DNA of 64,000 bases from Acidobacteriota bacterium. Its GTDB lineage: Bacteria > Acidobacteriota > Thermoanaerobaculia > Multivoradales > J023. The notes under the pieces are model-generated. The model had not been told where the DNA came from and did no database searches. It saw nothing but the letters and a program-made list of their open reading frames with translations. Every line of letters starts with the position of its first letter. Within the stretch, counting starts at the first letter, position 1. Made by a program: the position numbers and the translations under genes. The DNA is taken from the NCBI GenBank assembly GCA_029263395.1, contig JAJCXO010000080.1, positions 1-64,000 on the forward strand, in the 5' to 3' direction. Positions 250-42,200 of this stretch are shown here, in pieces.

Positions 250-684
250 ATGAATACCGCCGTCAACGAAGTCAAATCCAATCTGCCGGAAGCGCGAGTG
301 CTTCTGGCTGACGATAGCCCGATAAGCCAGACCGCCACCCGCTTCATGTTGAAGCACCTCGGAGTCGAGGTTGATGTTGCCGCCCATGGCAGAGCTGCGG
401 TCGAGCTCGCATCTGAACGCGCTTACGATCTAATTTTGATGGATTGCCAAATGCCCATCATGGATGGTTATGAAGCGACCCAAGCGATTCGGCAGCAGGA
501 GCAAGCGCCGGATGCCTTCGGCAGCGTGCCGCGGACACCCATCGTTGCCCTTAGTGGCAAAGTGATGGATGGCGACCGTGAAGAATGTTTGCACTACGGT
601 ATGGACGACTGCCTGGGTAAGCCGTTCGATCTCGCCCACCTACAAGCTTGCCTGCAACGGTGGCTAGCGGACAGTTGCGAGTGA
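250..684 (+). CDS. Single-domain response regulator (CheY-like receiver)
   Basis: A 144-residue protein consisting of one receiver domain with a short N-terminal extension of about 15 residues. The acidic pocket (ADDS), the phospho-acceptor Asp in LMDCQMPIMDG, the switch Ser in ALSGK and the conserved Lys in GKPF are all present, so phosphotransfer chemistry looks intact. There is no output domain, so it probably acts by protein contact or as a phosphorelay intermediate, as in hybrid-kinase pathways. No histidine kinase lies nearby. The start is supported by GAGAGG just upstream, which sits in a hairpin. The stop is followed by about 85 bases without a gene before the convergent small membrane protein. 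Confidence 0.9.
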   Translation: MNTAVNEVKSNLPEARVLLADDSPISQTATRFMLKHLGVEVDVAAHGRAAVELASERAYDLILMDCQMPIMDGYEATQAIRQQEQAPDAFGSVPRTPIVALSGKVMDGDREECLHYGMDDCLGKPFDLAHLQACLQRWLADSCE

Positions 685-768
685 AAGCGGTGCCTTCCGG
701 ACTAGCTGCTTGATCAAGCGCGGCTTGTTGTCTCGAAAGGCGCTCCGATCCGCGCGGCTGCAAGGTCG

Positions 769-1032
769 TTATGCTGGTAGCTTGACGTAGCGCAGCAGCA
801 AGCAGCCGAGGACCGCGCCAAGGGTAGCGGTTGCGAGACTACGGACATCGAAGGCCGCCATACCGCCAAACCCCAGTGCTGTGGCGAGTAAGCCACCGAT
901 CATTGCACTGCCTAGTCCGACCAGTGAGGCAGCTGTTGCCCCTAGGGATGGTTCTCCGGGGAGAAACCGGCTGGCGAGCAACCCGGCTGCAAGTCCGATC
1001 AAGATCCAAGAGACGAGTCCGAGTAAAAGCAT
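769..1032 (-). CDS. GlsB/YeaQ/YmgE family small membrane protein
   Basis: An 87-residue, very hydrophobic protein with three predicted membrane segments rich in Gly, Ala and Leu. It has the GlsB/YeaQ (transglycosylase-associated) pattern: an N-terminal helix with GLAAGLLASRFLPG, then two glycine-rich helices. The family consists of small inner-membrane proteins often induced by general stress; their biochemical role is not established, and the name transglycosylase-associated should not be read as an enzyme activity. It is transcribed away from polA, sharing the 143-base gap between them. Length is typical of the family. Confidence 0.75.
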   Translation of the reverse strand: MLLLGLVSWILIGLAAGLLASRFLPGEPSLGATAASLVGLGSAMIGGLLATALGFGGMAAFDVRSLATATLGAVLGCLLLRYVKLPA

Positions 1033-1175
1033 GATGTGATCTTGGTTTCCTTCTTCGATTGGCGAGTCGACTTCGAGAGTTGGCGCACCGCGAGTTTATC
1101 GCGCCGTGAGTTGGCCCGCCTAGAGTTTGCTGTGCAGACCTGCGCCAAGACGGGTCGCAAGGGTAGAATCGCTCC

Positions 1176-3812
1176 ATGAACAGCGAACGCCCCCGCCTTT
1201 TCCTGATCGACGGCTATTCCAACATCTTCCGTGCCTTCTACGCCATTCGCGGTCTGTCGAGCTCGAAAGGGGAGCCGACCAACGCCGTCTTCGGATTTAT
1301 CCAAATGCTGCGGAAGCTGCTGAAGGACGATAAACCCGAATATCTCGGCATCGCCTTCGACGTTTCGTCTGACACGGTGCGCAAGGACAGCTACAGCGAA
1401 TACAAGGCTAATCGTGCTCCGATGCCCGATGATCTCCGGTCACAAATCCCGTGGATCCGTAAAGCCATCGAGGCTTACAAAATCCCCTTACTGGAGCTTC
1501 CCAAGTACGAAGCCGACGACGTCCTGGGTACCATGGCCAAGAAGGCCGTGGCAGCGGGTTATGAGGTTGTGCTGGTCAGTCCTGACAAGGATCTTATGCA
1601 ACTGGTGGGCGACGGGGTTTTCCAATACCACACGTCGCGCGACAAGCTTTACGATCCGCAGCTAGTCGAGGACGACTTCGGTGTTCCGCCACACCAGGTC
1701 ATCGATGTGTTGGCGTTGATGGGAGACAGTTCGGACAACGTACCCGGGGTGCCAGGCATTGGCCAAAAGGGCGCGGTCAAGTTGGTGAGCGAGTACGGTT
1801 CGGTGGAGACGTTGATCGAGCGCGCCAGCGAGATCACGGCGAGGGGATATGGCAAGAAGCTCACCGAACATCAAGAATCTGCGCGGTTGTCGAAAGAGTT
1901 GGTGACCATTCACACCGACCTCGACATCGAGTTTGACCCCCAATCGTTAGCGTTGGAAGAACCAGACTACGGAGCTTTGCGGGAGCTCTGCTGGCAACTC
2001 GACCTCAACAGTCTGGCACAGGAGCTGGAGGCTTCGATCGGCCAGACCGCTAAACCTGCGGCGCCGGCAGGTGATCTAGCTTCGGATCAGGCGTGGCAGG
2101 ATCTGGTCGATCATCTCGGCAGTGAAATTGTTGTCGGCGTGGTTGGCACCTCACAGGCAGTTGGTGTCGCGATCCTCGACGCCAAGGGGGAACCTTGGTA
2201 CGCGGACTTTCGGCAGGCAGGCTTGCGTGCCGCGGTCGAAGCGAGCCTCGTTACTTGGGCAGGACGGGAAGACATCACTCTCGTAGGCCACGATCTCAAA
2301 GAAGTATTGCGTCTACTACCGCCGCGAGTCATCGTCAGCTGTCGCCTATTCGATACCATGCTGGCGTCTTACCTCACACGCTCCGCGCTCCGCAGCCACG
2401 AACTGCCGGCGGTTGTGCTCGAGCGACTGCACCTGTCGGCGATCACCGCGGCGCAAGCCGGCTTCACCCGCGGCGAGGAGCCGTTGGCCGGCGACTCCAA
2501 ACTGCTCTCTTTTGCTGCTGAACAAGTTGACCTACCGCAACGGATGAAGGCTGCGCTGCACCAAGATCTGGTCGATGACCAACTAGTATCAGTTTACGAA
2601 ACTATCGAGGAGCCGTTGGTCCCAATTTTGGCGGATATCGAGGAATCGGGTATCGAACTCGATGTTATCTACCTCGAAAACATGTCGGATGAGCTAGCTG
2701 GCGAAATTGCCTCGCTCGAGGAGAAGATCTACGAACTGGCAGGAGAACGATTCAACATCAACTCACCGCGCCAGCTCGGCACGATCATGTTCGAAAAATT
2801 GGGCCTGCCAGTTCTGCGCAAGACCCGTAAAACCAAGGCCTATTCGACCGGTGCCGAGACCCTCGAGGAGCTGGCTGCCCGTGGCTTCGACCTGCCTGAA
2901 CATCTGTTGCGGTATCGCGAGCTCACCAAGCTGAAGTCGACCTACGTCGATGCCTTACCTGCTTTGCTGGCGGCTGATGGCAGGCTGCACACTCGGTTCA
3001 ACCAGGCAGTTGCGGCGACTGGACGACTCTCTTCAGCGCATCCCAATCTGCAGAATATTCCGATTCGTACCGAGCAGGGGAATCGTATTCGTAAGGCCTT
3101 TCGCGCCGCCGAGGGCCGAGCCTTGGTGGTCGCTGACTATAGCCAGATCGAGCTCCGAGTTTTGGCGCACATTGCCGACGAAGAGGCGATGATAAAGGCC
3201 TTTCGTGCCGGTGAGGACATTCATGCATCAACCGCCGCAGCGGTATTTGATGTGTCTCCGTTGTTGGTCAACGCCGAACAGCGTCGGATGGCGAAGGTGA
3301 TCAACTTTGGCATCATCTATGGCATGAGTGGTTGGGGGCTGGCCCAGCGCCTCGGGATCGGGAAGAAGGATGCCGAACGGTTCATTGCCGCCTACATGGA
3401 GCGTTATCCGGGAGTCTCTCGTTACACCGAGGAGACCTTGGCTGAAGCTCAGGAAACCCGTCGGGTGAAGACCCTCTATGGCCGGATCCGCCAATTGCCT
3501 GACATCAACAGTCGCAATTATTCACTGCGCGAGAATGCTAAACGGATGGCGATCAACGCTCGTATCCAGGGCACCGCCGCTGATCTCATGAAGTTGGCGA
3601 TGATTGCGGTCGATCACCGTCTACGTCGTGAAATGCCTGACGCGCGCCTATTGCTGACGGTGCATGATGAATTGGTGCTGGAGGGGCCGGCGGAAACGAT
3701 CGAGGCACTCGGTGAGCTGACCCGTGAAGAGATGGAGGGTGTTGCCAACCTCACGGTGCCGTTGGTGGTGGATCTTGGCAAGGGAGAGACCTGGTACGAG
3801 GCCAAGGCATAG
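1176..3812 (+). CDS. polA: DNA polymerase I
   Basis: An 878-residue family A DNA polymerase for gap filling and Okazaki fragment processing. Residues 1 to about 290 form the 5'-3' flap exonuclease (RLFLIDGYSNIFRAFYAI, YEADDVLGT, MGDSSDNVPGVPGIGQK). About 300-480 is the 3'-5' exonuclease-like fold, and about 490-878 the polymerase. Motif A begins at Asp654 (DYSQIELR), motif B is RRMAKVINFGIIYG near 703-716, and motif C is VHDE at 829-832. The middle domain lacks the DxE metal-binding motif at its start, so proofreading is probably lost, as in several bacterial Pol I enzymes. The start lacks a clear Shine-Dalgarno; TAGAAT at 1164-1169 lies six bases before the ATG, which would fit a leaderless transcript. 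Confidence 0.97.
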   Translation: MNSERPRLFLIDGYSNIFRAFYAIRGLSSSKGEPTNAVFGFIQMLRKLLKDDKPEYLGIAFDVSSDTVRKDSYSEYKANRAPMPDDLRSQIPWIRKAIEAYKIPLLELPKYEADDVLGTMAKKAVAAGYEVVLVSPDKDLMQLVGDGVFQYHTSRDKLYDPQLVEDDFGVPPHQVIDVLALMGDSSDNVPGVPGIGQKGAVKLVSEYGSVETLIERASEITARGYGKKLTEHQESARLSKELVTIHTDLDIEFDPQSLALEEPDYGALRELCWQLDLNSLAQELEASIGQTAKPAAPAGDLASDQAWQDLVDHLGSEIVVGVVGTSQAVGVAILDAKGEPWYADFRQAGLRAAVEASLVTWAGREDITLVGHDLKEVLRLLPPRVIVSCRLFDTMLASYLTRSALRSHELPAVVLERLHLSAITAAQAGFTRGEEPLAGDSKLLSFAAEQVDLPQRMKAALHQDLVDDQLVSVYETIEEPLVPILADIEESGIELDVIYLENMSDELAGEIASLEEKIYELAGERFNINSPRQLGTIMFEKLGLPVLRKTRKTKAYSTGAETLEELAARGFDLPEHLLRYRELTKLKSTYVDALPALLAADGRLHTRFNQAVAATGRLSSAHPNLQNIPIRTEQGNRIRKAFRAAEGRALVVADYSQIELRVLAHIADEEAMIKAFRAGEDIHASTAAAVFDVSPLLVNAEQRRMAKVINFGIIYGMSGWGLAQRLGIGKKDAERFIAAYMERYPGVSRYTEETLAEAQETRRVKTLYGRIRQLPDINSRNYSLRENAKRMAINARIQGTAADLMKLAMIAVDHRLRREMPDARLLLTVHDELVLEGPAETIEALGELTREEMEGVANLTVPLVVDLGKGETWYEAKA

Positions 3813-3852
3813 ACGTTCCCTACTGACGCCACATTGTCGCCACATTTGATCA

Positions 3853-3876
3853 CTAGATTGCCTCTGCAATCGATCT
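3853..3876 (+). terminator. Weak hairpin downstream of polA
   Basis: GATTGC at 3856-3861 and GCAATC at 3866-3871 pair perfectly around a CTCT loop about 40 bases after the polA stop. No T-run follows, so this is only a possible factor-dependent or processed 3' end. Confidence 0.25.
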
Positions 3877-3954
3877 AGAAAAGACATCCGCGGAGGTTGG
3901 AATCTTTCCAGCGCCGTCTCTTTCGGTGTCGAACATCCACGCAAGGAGGATCAG

Positions 3955-4203
3955 ATGCTGGTGTGCAGACTCGGCCCAACAACGGCTAGCCAACAACACA
4001 TGGGTGTGAGGTCGACTACTGAAGCGACAGCCAATGGTTCTCGCCTCGGTGATGGTGGTCCAGTGTTTCTACCGCGGCGTAAGCCATCGGCAATCGGCGA
4101 AACACTGTTGGCACATGCTGTTGGCCTCGAGCCGCTGACCTCTTACGAGGAGGGCGCACACGAGATCCGCCTCGACACACCGTGCGATGCCACAAGAACG
4201 TGA
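3955..4203 (+). CDS. Small hypothetical protein
   Basis: An 82-residue open frame preceded by a strong Shine-Dalgarno (AAGGAGG at 3943-3949, five bases before the ATG), which is the main reason to list it. No family, signal peptide or membrane segment is recognised; the protein is polar with mixed composition. It lies in the otherwise empty gap between polA and the convergent lytic transglycosylase, whose stop lies 26 bases beyond. It could be a real small protein or a chance frame. Conservation in related genomes would decide. Confidence 0.4.
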   Translation: MLVCRLGPTTASQQHMGVRSTTEATANGSRLGDGGPVFLPRRKPSAIGETLLAHAVGLEPLTSYEEGAHEIRLDTPCDATRT

Positions 4204-4229
4204 ACCAACCTTGTGGCCCAACACCCGTG

Positions 4230-5963
4230 TCAGGACGGGGAGGGGATCACCAGCACTTGCCGCGGCTGGATAATGTGATTGCGGATCTTGTTAGCGCTTT
4301 GCAGGGCTCGAACGGTGGTGCCATAACGGCGGGCTATACTGGCGAGGGTTTCGCCGGAACGCACCACGTGAGTAGTGGCTGCGTCGGTAGACAACGAATT
4401 CGGTAGGCTGAGTCGTTGGCCCACATAGATGCGGTTGGCGCTACGTAGGCCGTTGTGTGAGCGGAGCGCCGAGACCGAGGTGCCGTAGGCTTCAGCGATG
4501 GCCGACAGCGTTTCGCCCCGTTTGACGACATGTTTGCCGGGAGTTGTCTGCGGTGTAGCGGCAGCGACGCGCGAGCTGGTCGTAATTCCCGAGCTGGAAG
4601 ACCGTGAGCGTCTTCCAGGCGGGATCAACAGTCGTTGGCCGATACTGATCCGGTTTGCACTGCGCAGCTTGTTGGCCTGCTGCAGGCGGGATGTCGAAGT
4701 CCCGAATTTGTCAGCGATCCGACTGAGTGTGTCGCCGCGTCGCACCTTGTAATAGTGGCCAACTTGATGCGTCGAAGTGCGATCGGCCGGCAGGCTGGCG
4801 AAGGCTGTTTCAAAGGCTGTGCCGCGGCCGTCTGGGACCATTAAACGATAGTTCTTCGGCAAGTAGACGTCGCCGCTCCAAACATTCGACGCCAACGCCG
4901 GATTCATCGTCTTCAGAGTGTCGAGATCGGTGTCTGCGGCGCGGGCGAGATCCCGGATCGCTACATAACGATCGGGTCGGTACGCATCGTAACGCAGCGC
5001 TGGAGCTGGCTCGACCCCGGGAAAGTGATGGTTGCGGTTCTCGTAGACGCGGACCGCTGCGATGAATTCGCTGTAGAAATTGCGCGACGCGAAACCGAAT
5101 AGGCGGGATCTATAGCGGGTCGAGATCTCGCCCATGTCGCGAGTTCCCAACCGCCTGACGGCCCGCTGCATACCTGCGCGCCCGTGATTGTAAGCTGTGA
5201 TCGCCAGCGGCCAGGTTTTCAAAGCTTTGTAGTTGCCGGTGAGGTGCTTGCCTGCCGCCTCGGAAGCCAGGAGCGGATCGAAACGTTGGTCGAATTCGAG
5301 CTCCATGTCGAGATACATACGGGCGGTCGGCCGCACGAATTGCCAAATGCCACCAGCCTGTGCTGCGGAGCGTGCCTTCCATTGAAACAGGGATTCCACG
5401 AACGGCAGGCGTGTCAGCTCTTGGGGTAACCCCTGCCCTTCGAAAATTGATTCGATCTCGTCCATGTACACGCCCGAACGCTCGATACCCTCGGCGAATT
5501 GGTCCTTGAGGCATCGCTGGGTGCGCAAACGTTCAGCTGCGGCGCTGTATTTGCTGCGCCCGCCAGGGGTCCCGTTCCAAAGTTGCTCAACCCGTACTTG
5601 ATCTTCTGGGTAACGTTTCGAGACTCGACCCGCCGCCAGATCCATCAACAGCGTTCGATATTTGGTCTTGGCTTGTTGGATCTCGTTGCGTCGAGCTTGG
5701 GCTTTGTGACCCGCTGAGCGCCTGGATGTATCGAGTGCGGTGAAGTCGAGCACTGCATAAATCACGTTGAGGTGGCGTTCGTCGTGAAGCAGTACCTGGT
5801 GACTGTCGTACTTCGAGTAGACGGCAGTCCAGAAGGCGACATTGGGTTCGAGCTGTTCCGGCACTGGAAACAGTCGCGAATCGAGCGCGACCGCCTGGCT
5901 GCCGGCTACCATCGCTAGCACAATCACGAGAGCGGCGGTTCGGACAGCCAAGACAGAGTTCAT
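4230..5963 (-). CDS. LysM-containing lytic transglycosylase (MltD-like)
   Basis: A secreted or periplasmic murein-cleaving enzyme of 577 residues from the chosen ATG, which starts a clear signal peptide (MNSVLAVRTAALVIVLAMVA). The frame is open further upstream, but that part encodes the repeats of the leader and is unlikely to be translated. A goose-lysozyme-type SLT domain occupies roughly residues 150-290; the catalytic Glu is in RLPFVES, followed by AGGIWQF and AITAYNHG. Three LysM repeats follow (each with RGDTLSRIA or RSGETLASIA type starts), preceded by a degenerate one. This matches membrane-bound lytic transglycosylase D. The products are 1,6-anhydro-muropeptides. It is transcribed divergently from the rhodanese gene. 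Confidence 0.92.
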   Translation of the reverse strand: MNSVLAVRTAALVIVLAMVAGSQAVALDSRLFPVPEQLEPNVAFWTAVYSKYDSHQVLLHDERHLNVIYAVLDFTALDTSRRSAGHKAQARRNEIQQAKTKYRTLLMDLAAGRVSKRYPEDQVRVEQLWNGTPGGRSKYSAAAERLRTQRCLKDQFAEGIERSGVYMDEIESIFEGQGLPQELTRLPFVESLFQWKARSAAQAGGIWQFVRPTARMYLDMELEFDQRFDPLLASEAAGKHLTGNYKALKTWPLAITAYNHGRAGMQRAVRRLGTRDMGEISTRYRSRLFGFASRNFYSEFIAAVRVYENRNHHFPGVEPAPALRYDAYRPDRYVAIRDLARAADTDLDTLKTMNPALASNVWSGDVYLPKNYRLMVPDGRGTAFETAFASLPADRTSTHQVGHYYKVRRGDTLSRIADKFGTSTSRLQQANKLRSANRISIGQRLLIPPGRRSRSSSSGITTSSRVAAATPQTTPGKHVVKRGETLSAIAEAYGTSVSALRSHNGLRSANRIYVGQRLSLPNSLSTDAATTHVVRSGETLASIARRYGTTVRALQSANKIRNHIIQPRQVLVIPSPS

Positions 5964-10602: not shown

Positions 10603-10829
10603 CTAGGCTAGATCCCAACCAACAACGCATCGAGAGCTCGGTCGGTCTTGTGGGCTGCGCCGCAGCTCCAGAACTCGCCGGATCTCTTGCAGTATGCCTA
10701 AGTTATTGTATTGCCATCGGATACGAGATGCGAACAGGTGCGAAGCTCAAACATGCTCGCTGCTGGCTCGCTCCACAAGACCTCCCTCACCGAGCTGAGA
10801 ATGGCAATACTAGACGGGATCTAGGCTAG
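10603..10829 (+). repeat. MITE-like element, copy A
   Basis: A 227-base non-coding element bounded by near-perfect terminal inverted repeats: CTAGGCTAGATCCC at 10603-10616 and its complement at 10816-10829 (13 of 14 matching). It contains a short perfect palindrome, GCTGCG/CGCAGC. The same sequence recurs, inverted and about 45 bases shorter, at 42018-42200, and in a diverged form at 15518-15690. It encodes no transposase and lies between the SMP-30-like gene and clpS. An open frame running through it is not considered a gene. Confidence 0.7.
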
Positions 10830-22355: not shown

Positions 22356-22487
22356 GGGCTCGTTCTCCAGGGCATATGATTTTTCTCGGAATACGTAGGA
22401 TGGGCGGATTCGTGAAGAATAACACGCTCGGCCGAGAGACTTACCAAGGGATTCAAACCCCACGTCTAGATACGGTATCTAAGGGGC

Positions 22488-24907: not shown

Positions 24908-24987
24908 TCTGGAACGCTTACAAGAACGCATCGAGGGGGCTCTCAGGAAGGCGAGAAACGGATTTCTGGATGGACTCTAGTTAACGT

Positions 24988-25485
24988 TCAGTCGTCGTCG
25001 TGGCTCTGTAGGCGGTGGTAGCCGCGATTCCAGTAGACCAATGGTGCGGCGTCTGATTGGGGCACTTGGGTGGCTTGGACTTCACCGATGTAAACGTTGT
25101 GCGTACCGGCGGCGGAGCTGGAGTGTAACGTGCAGTCCAGCCAGGCGGCGGCATCGGCGAGGATCGGTGCGCCGGTCTGTGCTGTGGTCCAATCACCTTC
25201 GAGAAAGCGGTTCTCCTCTTTGACCCACGCGAAGCGGTCGGAGAGGGCGGCTTGGTCTTGGCGCAAGATGTTGACCGCGAAGACGGCTCCTGGCCGTTCG
25301 ATCAGCCGGTAGGCACTGTGTTGACGATCGATCACCACTGCGATCAGCGGCGGTTCCGGTGAAATCGAAGCGAAAGCCGAGACGGTCAAGCCGTGGATGT
25401 CGTCGCCCCCCTTGACCGTGACGATAGTTACGCCGGAAGCAAAGTGGCAGAGCGTGTTGCGAAACTCGTCGGACGTGATCGGCAC
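24988..25485 (-). CDS. Flavin reductase-like domain protein
   Basis: A 165-residue single-domain flavin reductase (FMN-binding split barrel, HpaC-like). It shows FRNTLCHFASGVTIVTV, GLTVSAFASISPEPPLIAVV and the C-terminal YIGEVQATQVP...PLVYWNRGYHRL of this family. Such proteins reduce FMN or FAD with NAD(P)H and often supply a two-component monooxygenase; no monooxygenase partner is adjacent. The start is a GTG with GAGGAA eight bases upstream. It converges on the DUF4097 gene and is divergent from the bacilliredoxin. Confidence 0.9.
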   Translation of the reverse strand: MPITSDEFRNTLCHFASGVTIVTVKGGDDIHGLTVSAFASISPEPPLIAVVIDRQHSAYRLIERPGAVFAVNILRQDQAALSDRFAWVKEENRFLEGDWTTAQTGAPILADAAAWLDCTLHSSSAAGTHNVYIGEVQATQVPQSDAAPLVYWNRGYHRLQSHDDD

Positions 25486-25600
25486 GGTCTATTTCCTCAG
25501 GAGTTGGTTCGTTGGTGTGCAGGCATATGGAGAAGAGACTCAGTCTCCCGTGGCGAGGAAGTTTAGCATTGGGCAGGGATCTGTCGCCGCCTGATAGCGA

Positions 25601-25630
25601 TTGGATCGCGAGCCTTGGGTGGCGTAGAAT
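25601..25630 (+). promoter_or_regulatory. Candidate promoter of the bacilliredoxin operon
   Basis: TTGGAT at 25601-25606 and TAGAAT at 25625-25630 lie 18 bases apart, giving a transcript start near 25637 and a leader of about 54 bases before the ATG at 25691. Confidence 0.45.
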
Positions 25631-25690
25631 GGAGAAGCGGCGGTTTATATCTGCCGTGTCTCAAATTTGTCACTCAGGAGGAATCTCACT

Positions 25691-26107
25691 ATGTATAGTC
25701 CACTACTCGTCAAGCCGATGCGCGAAGAGCTCACGTCGGCTGGCTTCGAAGAGTTGCTGAGCGCTGAGGATGTCGACCGCTTTGTCGCCAACAAAGAGGG
25801 CACCGCTCTGCTGGTGATCAACTCGGTCTGCGGCTGTGCAGCTGGCATGGCCCGCCCGGGGGTGCGGCTCGCACTCGAACATGGCAAGACGCCGGATCGA
25901 CTCGGTACAGTGTTTGCTGGCCAAGAAGCGGAAGCGACGGCACGGGCGCGCGGTGCCTTTCCTGAGATCCCGCCGTCGAGTCCGTCGATGGCCTTGTTCA
26001 AGGAAGGCGAGCTGGTACATTTTGTGCCGCGTCACCGGATTGAAGGTCATAGCCTCGAGGCTCTAGCACAAGATCTGACCCAGGCGTTCGATCAATTCTG
26101 CGCCTAG
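25691..26107 (+). CDS. BrxA/BrxB family bacilliredoxin
   Basis: A 138-residue thioredoxin-fold protein of the YphP/YqiW (DUF1094) family. The active site is the Cys-Gly-Cys in INSVCGCAAGMARPGV, and the family's C-terminal FFKDGE-like strand appears as ALFKEGELVHFVPRHRIEG. In Bacillus these proteins remove bacillithiol from S-bacillithiolated proteins; whether this organism makes bacillithiol cannot be seen here. The start has GGAGG ten bases upstream. It leads a plus-strand cluster with a 90-residue hypothetical and a DUF423 protein. Confidence 0.93.
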   Translation: MYSPLLVKPMREELTSAGFEELLSAEDVDRFVANKEGTALLVINSVCGCAAGMARPGVRLALEHGKTPDRLGTVFAGQEAEATARARGAFPEIPPSSPSMALFKEGELVHFVPRHRIEGHSLEALAQDLTQAFDQFCA

Positions 26108-26117
26108 GTAGGACGTG

Positions 26118-26390
26118 ATGGGCACTTTTCACCAGAACAAGAGCGAGCTGCACGGCATTACTGTGGTCGTCGACACCGCAGGACCCGAAATTTATGTCGG
26201 GCGTTGCGACGATATGGACGATGCCCGAGTGATTCTGCTCGATGTTGATGTTCATAACGATGGCGACGGCGGGCGATCAAAAGACGAGTATGTTCGCAAG
26301 GCGGCACAATTCGGGGTCTGGAAGAAGCACGACCAATTGGTACTCGATCGCGCCCAGGTGACCTCTGTCCGTCGCCTGAGCGAGCTCTGA
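26118..26390 (+). CDS. Conserved-looking small hypothetical protein
   Basis: A 90-residue acidic protein starting 10 bases after the bacilliredoxin stop and ending 12 bases before the DUF423 gene. It is predicted as short beta strands (LHGITVVVDTAGPEIYVGRC, DARVILLDVDVHND), then a helix (SKDEYVRKAAQFGV) and a final strand pair. One Cys is present (GRCDD). No family was recognised. The tight spacing strongly suggests a real gene translated with its neighbours. Confidence 0.75.
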   Translation: MGTFHQNKSELHGITVVVDTAGPEIYVGRCDDMDDARVILLDVDVHNDGDGGRSKDEYVRKAAQFGVWKKHDQLVLDRAQVTSVRRLSEL

Positions 26391-26402
26391 GACGGGGGTT
26401 GT

Positions 26403-26771
26403 ATGGCCCAGAACTGGATCGCTCTCGGAGCGTTATGGTGCGCTCTGTCCGTGGTGGCGGGGGCGTTTGGCGCTCACGGTCTCAAAACACGCCTCGACAT
26501 CGAGGCGCTTGCGTTGTGGGAGACCGCAGCCCGTTACTTCATGTACGCTGGTTTCGGAATCGTGCTCAACGGCATGGCAGCATGGCAGCAAGGTCGGCAA
26601 GGGTTCGATACCGCTGCGGTCTGCCTGGTTGCTGGTAGTCTGATCTTCAGCGGTACCGTCGCCGTGCTGGCCCTGGGAGGCCCACGTTGGCTCGGGGCGG
26701 TCACACCGATTGGCGGACTGCTCATGATCGTCGGCTTCGTGGTGTTCGGTTGGACGGCTTGGAGAGCATGA
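26403..26771 (+). CDS. DUF423 small membrane protein
   Basis: A 122-residue inner-membrane protein with four predicted helices. It has the DUF423 (YgdD/YwdK) signature: ALWCALSVVAGAFGAHGLK near the start, then WETAARYFMYAGFGIVLNGM, FSGTVAVLALGG and GGLLMIVGFVVFGWTAW. The family is very widespread and its function is unknown. It follows the small hypothetical protein by 12 bases. Confidence 0.92.
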   Translation: MAQNWIALGALWCALSVVAGAFGAHGLKTRLDIEALALWETAARYFMYAGFGIVLNGMAAWQQGRQGFDTAAVCLVAGSLIFSGTVAVLALGGPRWLGAVTPIGGLLMIVGFVVFGWTAWRA

Positions 26772-26885
26772 GGCGCCATCCCGAACCACGTTCGAGGTGG
26801 GTTTCGCCAGCAGATTCTGATTTCAACAAAAGATCACGATTGATTGCGATCCCGTCGGTCGCGCTAGAAAAGGAGATTCAGTTCC

Positions 26886-33802: not shown

Positions 33803-34774
33803 TCACGGGTAAATCCAGGTTCCCGTGCTGCCTTGGAGGGCCTGCTCGAGCGTCAGAACGTCAGTGATCAGCGCCCGTTGGCCTCCGTGTTCCAGAAACT
33901 GACAGGCTGCTTCGATTTTGGGACCCATACTCCCGTCAGGAAACTGCCCGTTTGCCATATGAGCCCGTGCCTCGCCTACGTTCATTGAGCTCAAGAGCGT
34001 TTCCTGGGCGGTCCCGAAGTTGAGGGCAACCTGCTCTACAGCGGTCAGAATGTAAAGTTCCTCGGCGCAGAGTTCATGGGCCATGACCGCGGATGCCAGG
34101 TCTTTGTCGATCACCGCCTCAACACCTTGCAGTTGGCCATCCTCGGCTCTTGCGACCGGGATACCGCCACCGCCGGTGACAATCACCAGAGCTCCGGAAT
34201 CGATGAGTGTGAGGATCAGTTGACGTTCGACCACCGCAATCGGCTTGGGAGAAGGAACAACCCGGCGCCAGCCTCGCCCAGAATCTTCTTTCATGATCCA
34301 ACCGCGCTGTTCCTCTAGAATCGAAACTTCGTGTTTCTGGAAGAACGGTCCGACGTACTTGGTCGGGTTTTGCAACGCAGGGTCGTCGGGATCAACTTCG
34401 ACGAGACTGAGAAGGGCGCAGACCGGTTGTTCCAAGCCGTGACTCAGCAAGCGGTTGCGCAGCACTCGTTCGATCATGTAGCCGAGGCCGCCTTGCAGGT
34501 CAGCAACCATCAGATCGAGCGGCAAGTCGGGAGCTTGTCCCCGAGCGAGCTCGACACGAATCATCTGATTGCCGACTTGTGGTCCGTTACCATGGGTCAA
34601 CACAACTTCATAACCTTGCTGGACAAGGTAGATGACGCTATCCAGGCTATGGTTGAGATTGGCATAGTCCTGGCCAACACTGCCATCGTCACCTGGGCGT
34701 GTGATCGCATTGCCGCCGAGAGCGACGATGACACGGCATGGCTTAGGGAGAGTTGATTCGGTGCTGGTGGTCAT
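33803..34774 (-). CDS. arcC: Carbamate kinase
   Basis: A 323-residue amino acid kinase family enzyme that interconverts carbamoyl phosphate plus ADP with carbamate plus ATP. ALGGNAI, THGNGPQVGNQ, PTKYVGPFF and TGGGGIPV are carbamate kinase signatures, and length is typical. It would normally complete arginine deiminase, allantoin or agmatine fermentation, but no ornithine carbamoyltransferase or arginine deiminase is in the window. Its start overlaps the upstream M29-like gene as TAATG, so the two are coupled. The link with a peptidase suggests nitrogen salvage from peptides or another carbamoyl donor; this is inference. Confidence 0.93.
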   Translation of the reverse strand: MTTSTESTLPKPCRVIVALGGNAITRPGDDGSVGQDYANLNHSLDSVIYLVQQGYEVVLTHGNGPQVGNQMIRVELARGQAPDLPLDLMVADLQGGLGYMIERVLRNRLLSHGLEQPVCALLSLVEVDPDDPALQNPTKYVGPFFQKHEVSILEEQRGWIMKEDSGRGWRRVVPSPKPIAVVERQLILTLIDSGALVIVTGGGGIPVARAEDGQLQGVEAVIDKDLASAVMAHELCAEELYILTAVEQVALNFGTAQETLLSSMNVGEARAHMANGQFPDGSMGPKIEAACQFLEHGGQRALITDVLTLEQALQGSTGTWIYP

Positions 34775-35925
34775 TAGATTGCGTAGCTCTGGTCGCGCAT
34801 CAGAGGAAGGGTTTCTCCATCCGGCATCGCCAACATCAAACTTCGGATTTGGATTGCGGGCTGAGTTTCGCTGAGATAAACCCGGTCGATGTGTACAGCA
34901 GCAGCAGGCGAGCTGAACTGGGCCGCGCCCACTTGTCCTCCAAAGTGGTCACTCCTTCCGAAGGCAATATGCAGTCCGAGTTTCTCGTCGAGCAAAATCT
35001 GGCCGATCGGTTGGATGCCGAAGTCGCTCAAGACGCCGAGGCCGAGTTCGGCTAGATTGCCGTAAGCGGGCTCGCGAGTTAGGTACTGAGCTTGCTCCCG
35101 AGAGGCTGGGCCTTCACTCTCGACTGCCACCGCTCGGTTACCTTCGATTCGGAAAGCAACCACTTCATCGCCAAACTGAACCGGCAGGATACCTGCCGAG
35201 CGACTGGCATCCCCAACATGCTCGCCCTCGTAAGGCACGATGTAGGCTTCTCCTGATGGTAAGTTTCCCGCGGTGCCAGGCCGCGTTACAAGGCCGCTAG
35301 ATGCATGAGCCGTCCGATGTCTGAGGTCGAGCTGGAGCATGGCGGTGCCAGCGTCGGTCTCAAAGCGAAAGTAAGCGGCAGTGGCTCGATCGAGCAGAGT
35401 CTTGAGGCGCTGTACCCTGCGGTCGACCTCGACATAGTCGAGCTTCAAAGCGGGCAGCATGGCAACACTGAAGCCCGGCATGGTTGCGGCACGAAATCCG
35501 TGACGGGCAGCTGCCAGCTTGAGTGGTGCTGTGGTCGAGAATTGAGTCGGCGCGATGACAATGCTGTGCTGACCAAAAATCGAAGCGAAGGGTTCCGCGG
35601 TGACGATGTCGAGTTCGTTGGCTGAGGCTGGCAGTGATCCTTGGTGGAATGGCCAAGCCATTGTGGGAAGATCGGCATTGTTCTGGCCGACGCTGGCGTA
35701 GAGGTAAAGATCAGCTTTCAAGCCAATACGGTCTGCCATCGCATCGAGACGTCGGGCCCAATCCGCGGCCAACTGACGGCGTTGCTTCCAGGCCGGAAGG
35801 TCGTCGGCAGGGGAGGTTGGGAGATCTGTCAATACCGCGATGCGAGTATCTTGTTCTGTGGGCTGAAAAGCCCGTTGAACGAGAGCGCTGAGCTCGCCGT
35901 CGTTCAGAGATCTGTGCTCTTGCAT
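34774..35925 (-). CDS. M29-like (thermophilic type) aminopeptidase family protein
   Basis: A 383-residue member of the M29/AmpS-like fold, which also includes ring-cleaving dioxygenases such as NicX. The C-terminal metal site looks complete: Glu in PSGEAYIVPYEGE, Glu in NLAELGLG, His in LGLHIAFG and the His/Asp pair in AVHIDRVYL. The N-terminal Rossmann-like half (ARRLDAMADRIGLKADLYLY) aligns only loosely. Peptidase activity is likely but not certain. It heads a minus-strand operon with carbamate kinase and the large membrane protein. Confidence 0.78.
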   Translation of the reverse strand: MQEHRSLNDGELSALVQRAFQPTEQDTRIAVLTDLPTSPADDLPAWKQRRQLAADWARRLDAMADRIGLKADLYLYASVGQNNADLPTMAWPFHQGSLPASANELDIVTAEPFASIFGQHSIVIAPTQFSTTAPLKLAAARHGFRAATMPGFSVAMLPALKLDYVEVDRRVQRLKTLLDRATAAYFRFETDAGTAMLQLDLRHRTAHASSGLVTRPGTAGNLPSGEAYIVPYEGEHVGDASRSAGILPVQFGDEVVAFRIEGNRAVAVESEGPASREQAQYLTREPAYGNLAELGLGVLSDFGIQPIGQILLDEKLGLHIAFGRSDHFGGQVGAAQFSSPAAAVHIDRVYLSETQPAIQIRSLMLAMPDGETLPLMRDQSYAI

Positions 35926-36618
35926 GACTACCCGGATGTCGTTCGAAGGTGACGCTCGAAGTTGAGTTGCTCGAGCGGTTGATCGTCTGAATAGGCTGTG
36001 GCTAATCCTTTATTTTAGCAGGCATGCGGATATCGAAGCGGTGATGGGGAACGATTTATCGCGGGGGTTTAATCGTCGACGGTGTTGCTGTATTCTTGAA
36101 TGTCTCCGGTATGCGTTGTGTTGAGCACAAGGTTCAAGACTCGCGACGGGCTGATTGCAACCGATGGCTGCCAACTTTTTTGGCAGTGATGTCAACTTAT
36201 CTTGCAAGTTCGGTGTCTGAGGTTCTCAGCGCCAACCATTCTTCGGAAGCGCAGCTCGGCAGGGTACCGCGCTTCGGAAGCCTTAAAAGCTTGTCGCTTT
36301 GTGGCGGATTGAAGACTCGGCCAACGGCTCGGCCTGGTAACCGGGTCGAAGTCCAAACTTTGCAGGATGGTTGGCATCTATCATGCAATTCTACTGAGAT
36401 GCGGTGAGGGTTTCTGAGGTTGGAATAGGTGGGTCCGTTGCCCGCTGAATCGTCCGGTTTCCAGCCTCTGGGACAGTGGACGGGGTCAACCGCATTGTCA
36501 ACTTGGCTTCGCTCGAGTTCGGAGATGATGAGTCTCCGTGCAAGCTGTCCCGACACCAAAACGGGGGCTGATGGCTGCGTGATTTTCGCGCACGGCCCCA
36601 ATAGAGGGAAGGAATGCT
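35926..36618. other. Gene-free region rich in hairpins
   Basis: Nearly 700 bases between the divergent aminopeptidase and FG-GAP genes, the longest stretch without a gene. An open frame at 36096-36407 lacks a ribosome binding site and has no protein-like features. Between 36095 and 36375 perfect inverted repeats follow one another closely and are listed as a candidate RNA. Flanking parts (35926-36094 and 36376-36618) show nothing clear. Confidence 0.6.
36095..36375 (+). ncRNA. Candidate structured RNA (series of perfect hairpins)
   Basis: Consecutive perfect stems: CTTGAA 36095-36100 with TTCAAG 36133-36138, enclosing TTGTG 36116-36120 with CACAA 36126-36130; CTGCCAA 36168-36174 with TTGGCAG 36180-36186; AACTT 36194-36198 with AAGTT 36206-36210; CTGAG 36217-36221 with CTCAG 36225-36229; and a 9-bp closing stem GCCAACCAT 36231-36239 with ATGGTTGGC 36367-36375. 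The last encloses GAAGCGC 36246-36252 with GCGCTTC 36269-36275 and a small CCTGG/CCGGG hairpin. This resembles a free-standing RNA or riboswitch-like leader with a multibranch junction. Strand is uncertain because stems read on both; plus is assumed. No family was recognised. Confidence 0.4.
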
Positions 36619-38745
36619 ATGCAAGATCGAGCGCTGTTGAAAACTACCGGCTCGTCGAATTCGGGCACCAGATTGGGAACGTTGGTGACCTGCGGATTGG
36701 CCCTCTTGCTATTCGCCCAGGGGGCGTGGGCGGATGGGGGCGTTGTGTTCCAAGATATCGCGGCTGGTGGTGGCGCCGGTTTGAGTTACGAACGTGTGCG
36801 ATCTGACTCGGATGTCATCTGGGACGACTTTCGGGCTGCCGGTGTCTTCTTTTTCCCAGATACTCCCAACACACCTCTCAAGTCCCGCGGCGCTCCGGGT
36901 GTTGCGATCCTCGACTACGACAACGACGGGGATCTAGACATCTACGTCACCAACGGACCCGAGACCGCCAACAGTCTGTTCTCGAATCAGTTGGTTGAGA
37001 GCGGGCAACTGACGTTTGTCGATGTGGCGACCGCTGCTGGGGTTGGCCTTGCCGATCAAGACAGTTCCGGGGTGTGCTTCGGCGACATCGACAACGATGG
37101 CGACCATGATCTGCTGGTTCTCAGTGGATTTGAGCCTAATCGACTGTTCGAGAACAATGGCGATGGTACGTTTACCGACTTGATGGCATCGAGTGGCCTG
37201 TCCAATGACCAAAAGACATCGGTCTCGTGCACCTTTGGCGATGTCGACAACGATGGTTTGCTCGATGTCTACATCGGCAACTGCTGCCTCGACATGAGTG
37301 ATCAGTTCGCCACCGCATCTGGTGAGCCGTTCGCGTTCAACCAACACAGCCAGCTCTATCTCAATACCGGCGGCAACGTTTTCGTCGACGTCAGTGCTTC
37401 GTCAGGAATCGAAGACCAGAAAGGGTTCCCACCCGGTTTCGACGGTTCTCCTGGCGTAACCTGGGCAGCAGCCATGGTGGATTACGATCTGGATGGTGAC
37501 GTCGACATCATCACTGCCGAGGATCAAGCAGCAGTACCCTTAGCCAGGGATGGCGGCACCGACCGCGGGTTGATCCATCTTTACGACAATGACGGCACCG
37601 GGCATTTCACCGACCTGACGGTCAGCAGCAACCTCAATCGTGCCGGCGCCTGGATGGGGCTGTCGTTCGGGGACATCAATGCGGATGGCCATTTAGATCT
37701 TTTCGGATCTAACCTCGGTGACTATGCAACAACTCTGCTGACGCCACTGGATCCGGTCTACGGCGACTTCGTCAACTATGAGCTCGGTGACATGAGCTCT
37801 CGATGGTACCTGGGTTCGAGCAGCGGAGTATTCGTCGATCCGGGGTTGGGGGCGATCGTCGCGACGCCCTTTGGTTGGGGGACCTCGATGGAAGACTACG
37901 ACAATGATGGTGACACCGACATCATCTACCATGGAGGTCTGTTGCCAGGCCCGACGGTTCAGGGCGCCCCTGGGGTGATCCTACAGAACGATGGCAGCGG
38001 GCAGTTCACCCGCGACATCGCCGCTCTTGCCGGTTCTACGGATCACGAACGTCGGACGGTGCAAGGGATTGCGATGGGAGATCTGAATGACGATGGATTC
38101 TCCGACATCGTCTCGGTGTCCAACTTCGATGTTCCGATATCGGCGTCACTCTCGACGTACAACCACAACTGGGGATCGCCTTTTGATGGCGGTCAGTACT
38201 TCCAGTTTTTTGTACCGACGCCAACACCTCTTTTGACGGATTTTAGCGGTGTTCAATTCGACAATGGTTCGCTTTCGGTCGAGGTCAACAGCGCAGACAA
38301 CGGCAATCGTTCGGCGACCATTCAGCTGTTGGGAACAGTTGGACTGACGAGTGGTGGCTCTGTCAATCGAGACGGTATCGGGGGAGTTGTCCGGTTTCGG
38401 ACGTCCCGTGGCCAAAGAGCGATGAAACCGGTTCTTGGAGGCTCGAGTTATGCTTCGCAGGACAGCTTGGAGCTGGTCTTCGGTATGGAGAGGGCCCGGC
38501 GTGGCCGGGTGGATGTTCTCTGGCCAGGCGGGGTACGCAATCGACTTTACGGCGTTCGACGTGGCGAAGACATCACTTTCCCGGAGATTCCTTGTGACTT
38601 CGCCGGCAGCTGGTCAAGCTTCTTCGAGTATGCGGTCTGTGTTAGCGGAGCGCTACATGAATTGCGCGACGCTGAGGTGATCAGCCACCGCGCGAAGAGT
38701 CGATTCTTCGTCAGTGCGATTCTCGCTTTTCTCGAGGAGCACTGA
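36619..38745 (+). CDS. FG-GAP/VCBS repeat protein with ASPIC/UnbV domain (CRTAC1-like)
   Basis: A 708-residue secreted protein with an N-terminal signal segment (LGTLVTCGLALLLFAQGAWA). Several calcium-binding FG-GAP repeats follow, each built on DxDxDG: DYDNDGDLDIYVTN, DIDNDGDHDLLV, DVDNDGLLDVYIG, DYDLDGDVDII, DINADGHLDLFG, DYDNDGDTDIIYHGG and DLNDDGFSDIVS. These predict an integrin-alpha-like beta-propeller. An ASPIC/UnbV-like part follows (VVRFRTSRGQRAMKPVLGGSSYASQ...VDVLWPGGVRN). Such proteins are abundant in Acidobacteriota and Planctomycetes; their role is unknown. The last 50 residues are extra. GGAAGG lies six bases before the ATG. Confidence 0.9.
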   Translation: MQDRALLKTTGSSNSGTRLGTLVTCGLALLLFAQGAWADGGVVFQDIAAGGGAGLSYERVRSDSDVIWDDFRAAGVFFFPDTPNTPLKSRGAPGVAILDYDNDGDLDIYVTNGPETANSLFSNQLVESGQLTFVDVATAAGVGLADQDSSGVCFGDIDNDGDHDLLVLSGFEPNRLFENNGDGTFTDLMASSGLSNDQKTSVSCTFGDVDNDGLLDVYIGNCCLDMSDQFATASGEPFAFNQHSQLYLNTGGNVFVDVSASSGIEDQKGFPPGFDGSPGVTWAAAMVDYDLDGDVDIITAEDQAAVPLARDGGTDRGLIHLYDNDGTGHFTDLTVSSNLNRAGAWMGLSFGDINADGHLDLFGSNLGDYATTLLTPLDPVYGDFVNYELGDMSSRWYLGSSSGVFVDPGLGAIVATPFGWGTSMEDYDNDGDTDIIYHGGLLPGPTVQGAPGVILQNDGSGQFTRDIAALAGSTDHERRTVQGIAMGDLNDDGFSDIVSVSNFDVPISASLSTYNHNWGSPFDGGQYFQFFVPTPTPLLTDFSGVQFDNGSLSVEVNSADNGNRSATIQLLGTVGLTSGGSVNRDGIGGVVRFRTSRGQRAMKPVLGGSSYASQDSLELVFGMERARRGRVDVLWPGGVRNRLYGVRRGEDITFPEIPCDFAGSWSSFFEYAVCVSGALHELRDAEVISHRAKSRFFVSAILAFLEEH

Positions 38746-42021: not shown

Positions 42022-42200
42022 GTTTTGTCCCGTTTAGCCATTTTCGGCTCAAGGAGGGCAGGTCTTGACGAGCGAGCAAGCAGCGGGCTTGTTTGAACTG
42101 CGCACCTGTTTCTGCCTGAGATCCGGCAAGTTCTGGAGCTGCGGCGCAGCCCACGGATCGACCGAGCTCTCGATGCATTCTTGGACAGGATCTAAGCTAG
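42018..42200 (-). repeat. MITE-like element, copy C (inverted)
   Basis: Inverted relative to copy A at 10603-10829 and very similar over long blocks (GCATCGAGAGCTCGGTCG, GTGGGCTGCGCCGCAGCTCC and CCGGATCTC on the minus strand). It lacks about 45 central bases present in copy A. Ends are CTAGG at 42018 and CTAAGCTAG ending at 42200, weaker inverted repeats than in copy A. Its left end supplies the TAG stop of the RND gene. Confidence 0.7.

Follow-up and report, generated by a model that had tools for sequence, protein, structure and literature searches.

The intergenic sequence at 36095-36398 of the window (the whole 64,000-nt stretch of Acidobacteriota DNA that was analysed) is most probably a control region that combines an enhancer with a sigma-54 promoter for the gene at 36619, which encodes an FG-GAP/UnbV protein, and that belongs to a lineage-restricted regulon. 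Most of it, 36095-36375, had been described in an earlier note as a series of perfect hairpins that could be a free-standing structured RNA or a long leader of the FG-GAP gene. If the sequence is a control region, the most conspicuous hairpin is a protein-binding palindrome. Because transcription is predicted to start near 36398, 3' of the hairpins, the hairpin stretch would lie upstream of the transcript. The earlier interpretation was right to see constraint in the stretch and a probable connection with the FG-GAP gene; a structured RNA is not the best reading. The case would illustrate how what looks like a 'hairpin array' in raw sequence may be an enhancer, and would supply a concrete, testable upstream activating sequence (UAS) motif for an orphan bacterial enhancer-binding protein (bEBP), of which uncultured Acidobacteriota have many.

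Genetic context

The hairpin stretch, on contig C80, falls inside a gap of 693 bp (35926-36618) between divergent genes (Table 1), in a genome of 10.7 Mb. By eye, the N-terminus of the 708-aa FG-GAP/UnbV protein resembles a signal peptide and no PEP-CTERM tail is present. The 383-aa protein encoded on the other side had no match in Pfam or NCBIfam at E 0.001. The gap contains no gene, as the earlier note had stated, and its description of the stretch as less GC-rich than the neighbouring DNA also holds, with a slight difference (0.50-0.53 in the overlying 300-base windows against 0.53-0.61 elsewhere in 34000-38500). Scans gave neither a terminator-like site (shuffle mean 1.1) nor a sigma-70-like one (shuffle mean 0.3).

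A coding role for the gap was considered and rejected, since its alignment with the sister species G001 shows by eye numerous gaps of one and two bases, which make a conserved reading frame unlikely. A repeated or mobile element was rejected as well, because the intergenic sequence matches its own genome once.

Table 1. Features of the proposed control region and loci carrying the dyads with a sigma-54 site. Offsets are dyad starts relative to the start of the sigma-54 site.
Feature	Position	Strand	Remarks
Divergent neighbour	34774-35925	-	383 aa
Dyad 1, predicted activator site UAS1	36168-36186		CTGCCAA-CTTTT-TTGGCAG; arms kept in G001; core recurs at family sigma-54 loci
Dyad 2, degenerate	36190-36206		TGTCAACTTATCTTGCA; 12/17 to TGCCAACTTTGTTGGCA; starts 21 bp after the start of dyad 1
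9-bp closing stem	36231-36375	+	GCCAACCAT/ATGGTTGGC, arms 36231-36239/36367-36375; right arm overlaps -24 element
7-bp stem	36246-36275	+	GAAGCGC/GCGCTTC, loop well conserved; 7/7 pairs kept in G001, one via G-C to G-U
Predicted sigma-54 promoter	36371-36388	+	TTGGCATCTATCATGCAA; -24 GG 36373-36374, -12 GC 36385-36386, GG-N10-GC
Predicted 5' leader of FG-GAP gene	36398-36618	+	most of best-conserved block; consensus fold z -3.06
Target gene	36619-38745	+	708-aa protein, FG-GAP repeats and UnbV_ASPIC domain (Pfam PF13517, PF01839, PF07593)
Dyads, window	offsets -202, -181		FG-GAP/UnbV
Dyads, G001	offsets -202, -181		FG-GAP/UnbV
Dyads, G000:C205	offsets -174, -153		FG-GAP/UnbV
Dyads, G002:C43	offsets -317, -252		FG-GAP/UnbV
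Dyads, G000:C266	offsets -244, -179		AfsA hotdog (PF03756) then amidohydrolase (PF04909)
Dyads, G002:C63	offsets -368, -313		orthologous AfsA hotdog (PF03756) then amidohydrolase (PF04909)
Dyads, G004:C140	offsets -243, -178		three successive proteins with prepilin N-methylation motif (PF07963)
AfsA-amidohydrolase operon, L178 (G000:C266)	2670-4436		
AfsA-amidohydrolase operon, L175 (G002:C63)	665-2295		
Further member candidate, L222 (G005:C333)	1954-3755		genus g3

The dyads and their recurrence

Dyad 1 ends 186 bp upstream of the predicted sigma-54 site. In G001 both arms of this 7-bp stem are identical and the spacer differs, which is what would be expected of a protein-binding dyad. The step of 21 bp to dyad 2 is found again in G001 and in the paralogue at G000:C205. 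Homologous upstream regions also have the dyad, as TTGCCAACTTTGTTGGC at G000:C205 and as TTGCCAACAAAGTTGGCAA at G002:C43.

The 15-base core GCCAACTTTGTTGGC, from which the window dyad departs by one mismatch, was found five times, at four loci, when 148 genomes of the class were searched, and every time in the window's family, in three of its seven genomes; the other 141 class genomes have none, and the reversed control gave 0. Two of the four loci were already known as FG-GAP loci. The targets are an FG-GAP paralogue, an FG-GAP orthologue, an AfsA-type operon and a pseudopilin operon. On one side of the dyad, and no more than 420 bp away, all four loci have a sigma-54 core (plain consensus TGGCAYN5TTGCW; one mismatch tolerated, but none in GG or GC); the distances are 158-352 bp. 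The chance expectation is about 0.03 per locus for both sides, given a background of 0.010 per 300 nt on one strand (515,354 bases contain 18 sites, those of the set among them). The dyad, followed by a sigma-54 type site, thus precedes genes that are unrelated to one another, and judged from the sequences this is best read as a signal in DNA rather than in RNA. With one mismatch allowed, TGCCAAC-N3-GTTGGCA was found at 27 places in the seven family genomes, modestly more than the 16 of the reversed control; 23 of the 27 were examined, G001:C723, G000:C215:1984, C282 and C285 being left out.

Together with the window, G001 and a second AfsA locus, the four exact-core loci form a set of seven. 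Each of the seven has a sigma-54 core on one side and a pair of dyads, a dyad being counted when no more than 5 of its 17 positions differ; the background frequency is 0.20 per 420 nt. Each locus had been included on account of its first dyad, not of its second. The start-to-start steps are 21 bp at three loci, 65 bp at three and 55 bp at one. The dyad ends 186, 186, 158, 162 and 163 bp from the sigma-54 site in five loci; in the two G002 loci it is farther away, at 301 and 352 bp. The orthologous AfsA-amidohydrolase operons of two genera both have the module of dyad and sigma-54 site. Two of the module targets have a serine/threonine kinase gene as their immediate upstream neighbour, at 1840-4332 of L054 (G000:C205) and 561-3344 of L174 (G004:C140).

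The dyad also occurs apart from a sigma-54 site. Two of the six exact TGCCAA-N5-TTGGCA sites in the window's own genome are in the set, and the other four (C53, C162, C263 and C112) have no sigma-54 core nearby. Among 13 further one-mismatch loci, all six outside the GC-rich genus g3 (G003 and G005) lacked a nearby core, and five of the seven within g3 have one at 73-145 bp. Across g3 loci selected without regard to the dyad, 46,408 bases counted over both strands contained no core. One g3 locus, L165/L222, has an exact sigma-54 core, a second dyad 21 bp away and a ketoacyl-synthase gene downstream, and L222 is probably a further member in this genus. Other g3 dyad loci are in or beside long reading frames; those tried against Pfam matched nothing or, weakly, cyclophilin (L170 was left out). 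The g3 dyad loci are regarded as candidates outside the seven-locus set.

The predicted sigma-54 promoter

The predicted promoter TTGGCATCTATCATGCAA shows the GG-N10-GC spacing exactly and has one mismatch to TGGCAY-N5-TTGCW (A instead of T at the second base before the conserved -12 G). Its counterpart in G001, TTGGCATCTATCGTGCAT, lies at the identical distance of 186 bp from the dyad. The distance from the site to the start codon is 248 bp in the window, 255 bp in G001 and 313 bp at C205; at G002:C43 the two possible ATG codons put it at 90 or 159 bp. The window site is unconvincing when taken alone, since the 64-kb window has four one-mismatch consensus sites, three of them outside this locus. 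It should also be noted that the sigma-54 hypothesis arose after inspection of the sequence.

Under an approximate weight matrix, with p values taken from the highest-scoring background site in each 900 nt, the window site reached 13.5 (p 0.015). The orthologous site of G001 scored 13.0, and a second site 297 bp further upstream in G001 scored slightly better (13.7, p 0.014). The sites of the paralogue at G000:C205 (60% identity) and of the orthologue at G002:C43 (58% identity) scored 17.1 (p 0.001) and 16.5 (p 0.002), respectively. No comparable site (p >=0.066) was present in 29 of the 33 FG-GAP upstream regions scanned. This sample included 23 of 48 homologue loci, some of which may duplicate G-numbered genomes; the remaining 25 were L066, which is G001's contig, and 24 loci excluded because they came from distant relatives or matched close to the end of a contig.

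The RpoN DNA-binding domain was found in six of the seven family genomes, including that of the window, with a match to PF04552 over the cut-off at G000:C278; it was not found in G005 (81% complete). The FG-GAP homologues in G003-G006 have no sigma-54 site although G003, G004 and G006 do have RpoN, so control of the FG-GAP gene differs within the family.

Conservation

The intergenic sequence matched over its length only G001 among 58 relatives, and the next-best match (E 7.6e-4) covered 25 bases. Similarly, nhmmer over the loci gathered placed only the window and G001 above threshold, with sub-threshold matches to the dyad of two further loci (E 0.81 and 4.4). Between window and G001 the 693-bp gap is 73% identical, compared with 45% at fourfold-degenerate sites (22 genes, 4590 sites), and is therefore under constraint. 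This value is not exceptional, since other intergenic gaps of the window span 40-82% (the list includes 24908-26885, which contains short ORFs). The best-conserved block, 36376-36525 with about 85% identity, lies immediately 3' of the hairpin stretch and opens with the promoter site. The stretch itself is 69% identical, and 60-base windows across 36286-36375 show 52%.

Hairpins and alternative readings

The density of hairpins, which had been considered higher than expected, proved to be ordinary. Six perfect stems (arms >=5, loops <=20) were counted against a shuffle mean of 3.98, and 62 of 300 shuffles reach six. Stems with arms >=7 are the sole class to stand out, with two against 0.32 expected (reached in 9/300 shuffles). 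The 9-bp stem reported to close the array is present, but stems of at least 9 bp occur in 27/300 shuffles and six of its nine pairs remain in G001; it is probably due to chance. Conservation of stems in the one close relative is partial: both 7-bp stems are kept in G001, but neither the 9-bp stem nor one 6-bp stem (four of six pairs retained) is kept in full. The stem at 36246-36275, between the dyads and the promoter, is not explained by the sigma-54 reading. The proposed scan against Rfam gave no match in the window at the gathering threshold; at a permissive threshold there were three sub-threshold matches (E 0.89 and weaker), none of them credible. As a single sequence the stretch folds better than dinucleotide shuffles on both strands (+, z -4.05, 0/200 shuffles reaching the observed value; -, z -3.03, 1/200).

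Since the number of perfect hairpins lies within the shuffle range, it might be thought that they are chance formations in a non-functional spacer. This is scarcely credible, as the excess of identity over fourfold-degenerate sites disfavours it and the dyads recur at other loci. A conserved structured RNA of the + strand, either an independent RNA or a long leader transcribed from a more distant upstream promoter, is an unlikely explanation, although folding argues for it. In addition to the z of -4.05 for the window, the G001 sequence alone gave -2.06, and the consensus fold of the two sequences at 36132-36291 had, relative to column shuffles, z values of -4.46 (+ strand) and -0.41 (- strand). 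The former is slightly beyond the best (-4.1) of 470 background windows, but the background was scanned with a step of 150 and the region with a step of 20, which favours the peak of the region. These background windows were pooled because their split into 404 genic and 66 others was unreliable (the gene list missed several genes, such as those ending near 22463, 43644 and 54050). Over the whole of 36095-36375 the consensus fold gave z -2.67 on + and +0.21 on -, with 19 one-sided changes that keep pairing. Against these values stand a single double-sided change in 71 predicted pairs (two sequences only), the breaking of the closing stem in G001, the lack of an Rfam match, of a sequence homologue outside the genus among the loci gathered and of an upstream promoter in the sigma-70 scan. 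The region resembles structured leader RNAs and riboswitches in having dense stems before one gene; unlike them it matches no Rfam family and lies upstream of the predicted start. A transcript through 36095-36375 itself is possible but unsupported. A modestly structured leader 3' of the hairpin stretch is plausible: the consensus fold of 36398-36618 (z -0.99 on the - strand) contains one double change (A-U to G-C) in 58 pairs and six one-sided changes, again in two sequences only, and either leader folded by itself is barely better than its shuffles (z -1.57 and -1.10).

The dyad would equally suit a dimeric repressor, and the divergent gene shares the control region. We nevertheless consider it very improbable that this is an ordinary promoter or operator for another class of regulator (a repressor or a sigma-70 activator) with a coincidental sigma-54 site. 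The sigma-54 core stands on one side in 4/4 exact-core loci and in 7/7 loci of the set, a sigma-70-like site was absent in the scan, and the dyads are 158-352 bp from the sigma-54 site. Such a distance from the promoter is unusual for a repressor operator.

Proposed mechanism and candidate regulon

The motifs, their conservation and co-occurrence, and the presence of RpoN in the genome point to a control region that might function as follows. A bEBP would bind the two TGCCAAC-N3-GTTGGCA-like dyads, whose starts at 36169 and 36190 would place them on the same face of the DNA, 21 bp corresponding to two helical turns; two bEBP oligomers may thus occupy the phased dyads. About 190 bp of intervening DNA would loop, and by ATP hydrolysis the bEBP would open RpoN polymerase at TTGGCATCTATCATGCAA. 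Transcription would start near 36398, about 12 nt past the GC, giving a leader of about 220 nt. Genes behind the same pair of dyads and sigma-54 site would form a small regulon within this Acidobacteriota family. Binding, looping and start are modelled on the established behaviour of sigma-54 systems, for which PMC4641369 describes a layout with bEBP upstream sites and the promoter consensus tGGcacg / tTGCt.

The arrangement is like that of sigma-54/bEBP UAS systems in its -24 GG/-12 GC spacing, its TGGCAY...TGCW core and its repeated dyads more than 100 bp upstream. It is unlike those described in that no paper with this dyad was found in the open-licence library searched, nor any that joins UnbV with sigma-54 or the Thermoanaerobaculia with sigma-54 and an enhancer; Acidobacteria, sigma-54 and enhancer-binding proteins came up together in one paper, a review of ECF sigma factors. 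Another comparison is the PrsK/PrsR-RpoN control of PEP-CTERM genes in floc formation, which (PMC9850573) similarly places RpoN and a predicted enhancer before the gene of a secreted or surface protein. The system studied here differs in the absence of a PEP-CTERM tail, judged by eye, and PrsR was rejected as the activator because none of the seven family genomes had a match to TIGR02915 over the NCBIfam cut-off. The activator in our model would be one of many orphan bEBPs. The G000 genome has at least 52 bEBP-like proteins (TIGR02915, E<=1e-60; 81 of 181 candidates scored), a large repertoire of sigma-54 activators in an Acidobacteriota genome; TIGR02915 also matches below the cut-off in 4/14 control genomes. 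Among the matches listed, no bEBP was on the contigs of the seven set loci.

Tentatively, a bEBP regulon may be proposed for one Acidobacteriota family, in which a single activator acting through paired TGCCAAC-N3-GTTGGCA-like dyads and sigma-54 would switch on the genes of FG-GAP/UnbV proteins whose N-terminus resembles a signal peptide, the AfsA-type operon (with its hotdog enzyme), in one genus the pseudopilin operon and perhaps in another the ketoacyl-synthase gene, as a coordinated programme of surface and cell-signalling functions. AfsA makes butyrolactone signals in Streptomyces. If the regulon holds, an AfsA-type enzyme would be tied to FG-GAP proteins.

An interspersed repeat elsewhere in the window

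An interspersed repeat is present at 42027-42200, just 3' of an RND gene, and again at 10603-10692 on the - strand. It has at least 62 matching stretches in its own genome (40 of 163 candidates scored) and more than 15 matches in the sister species G001. The copy of the window is without about 39 internal bases that are found in most aligned copies (six sequences). This copy folds no better than shuffles (z -0.91). The repeats seem to represent a family of small repetitive elements.
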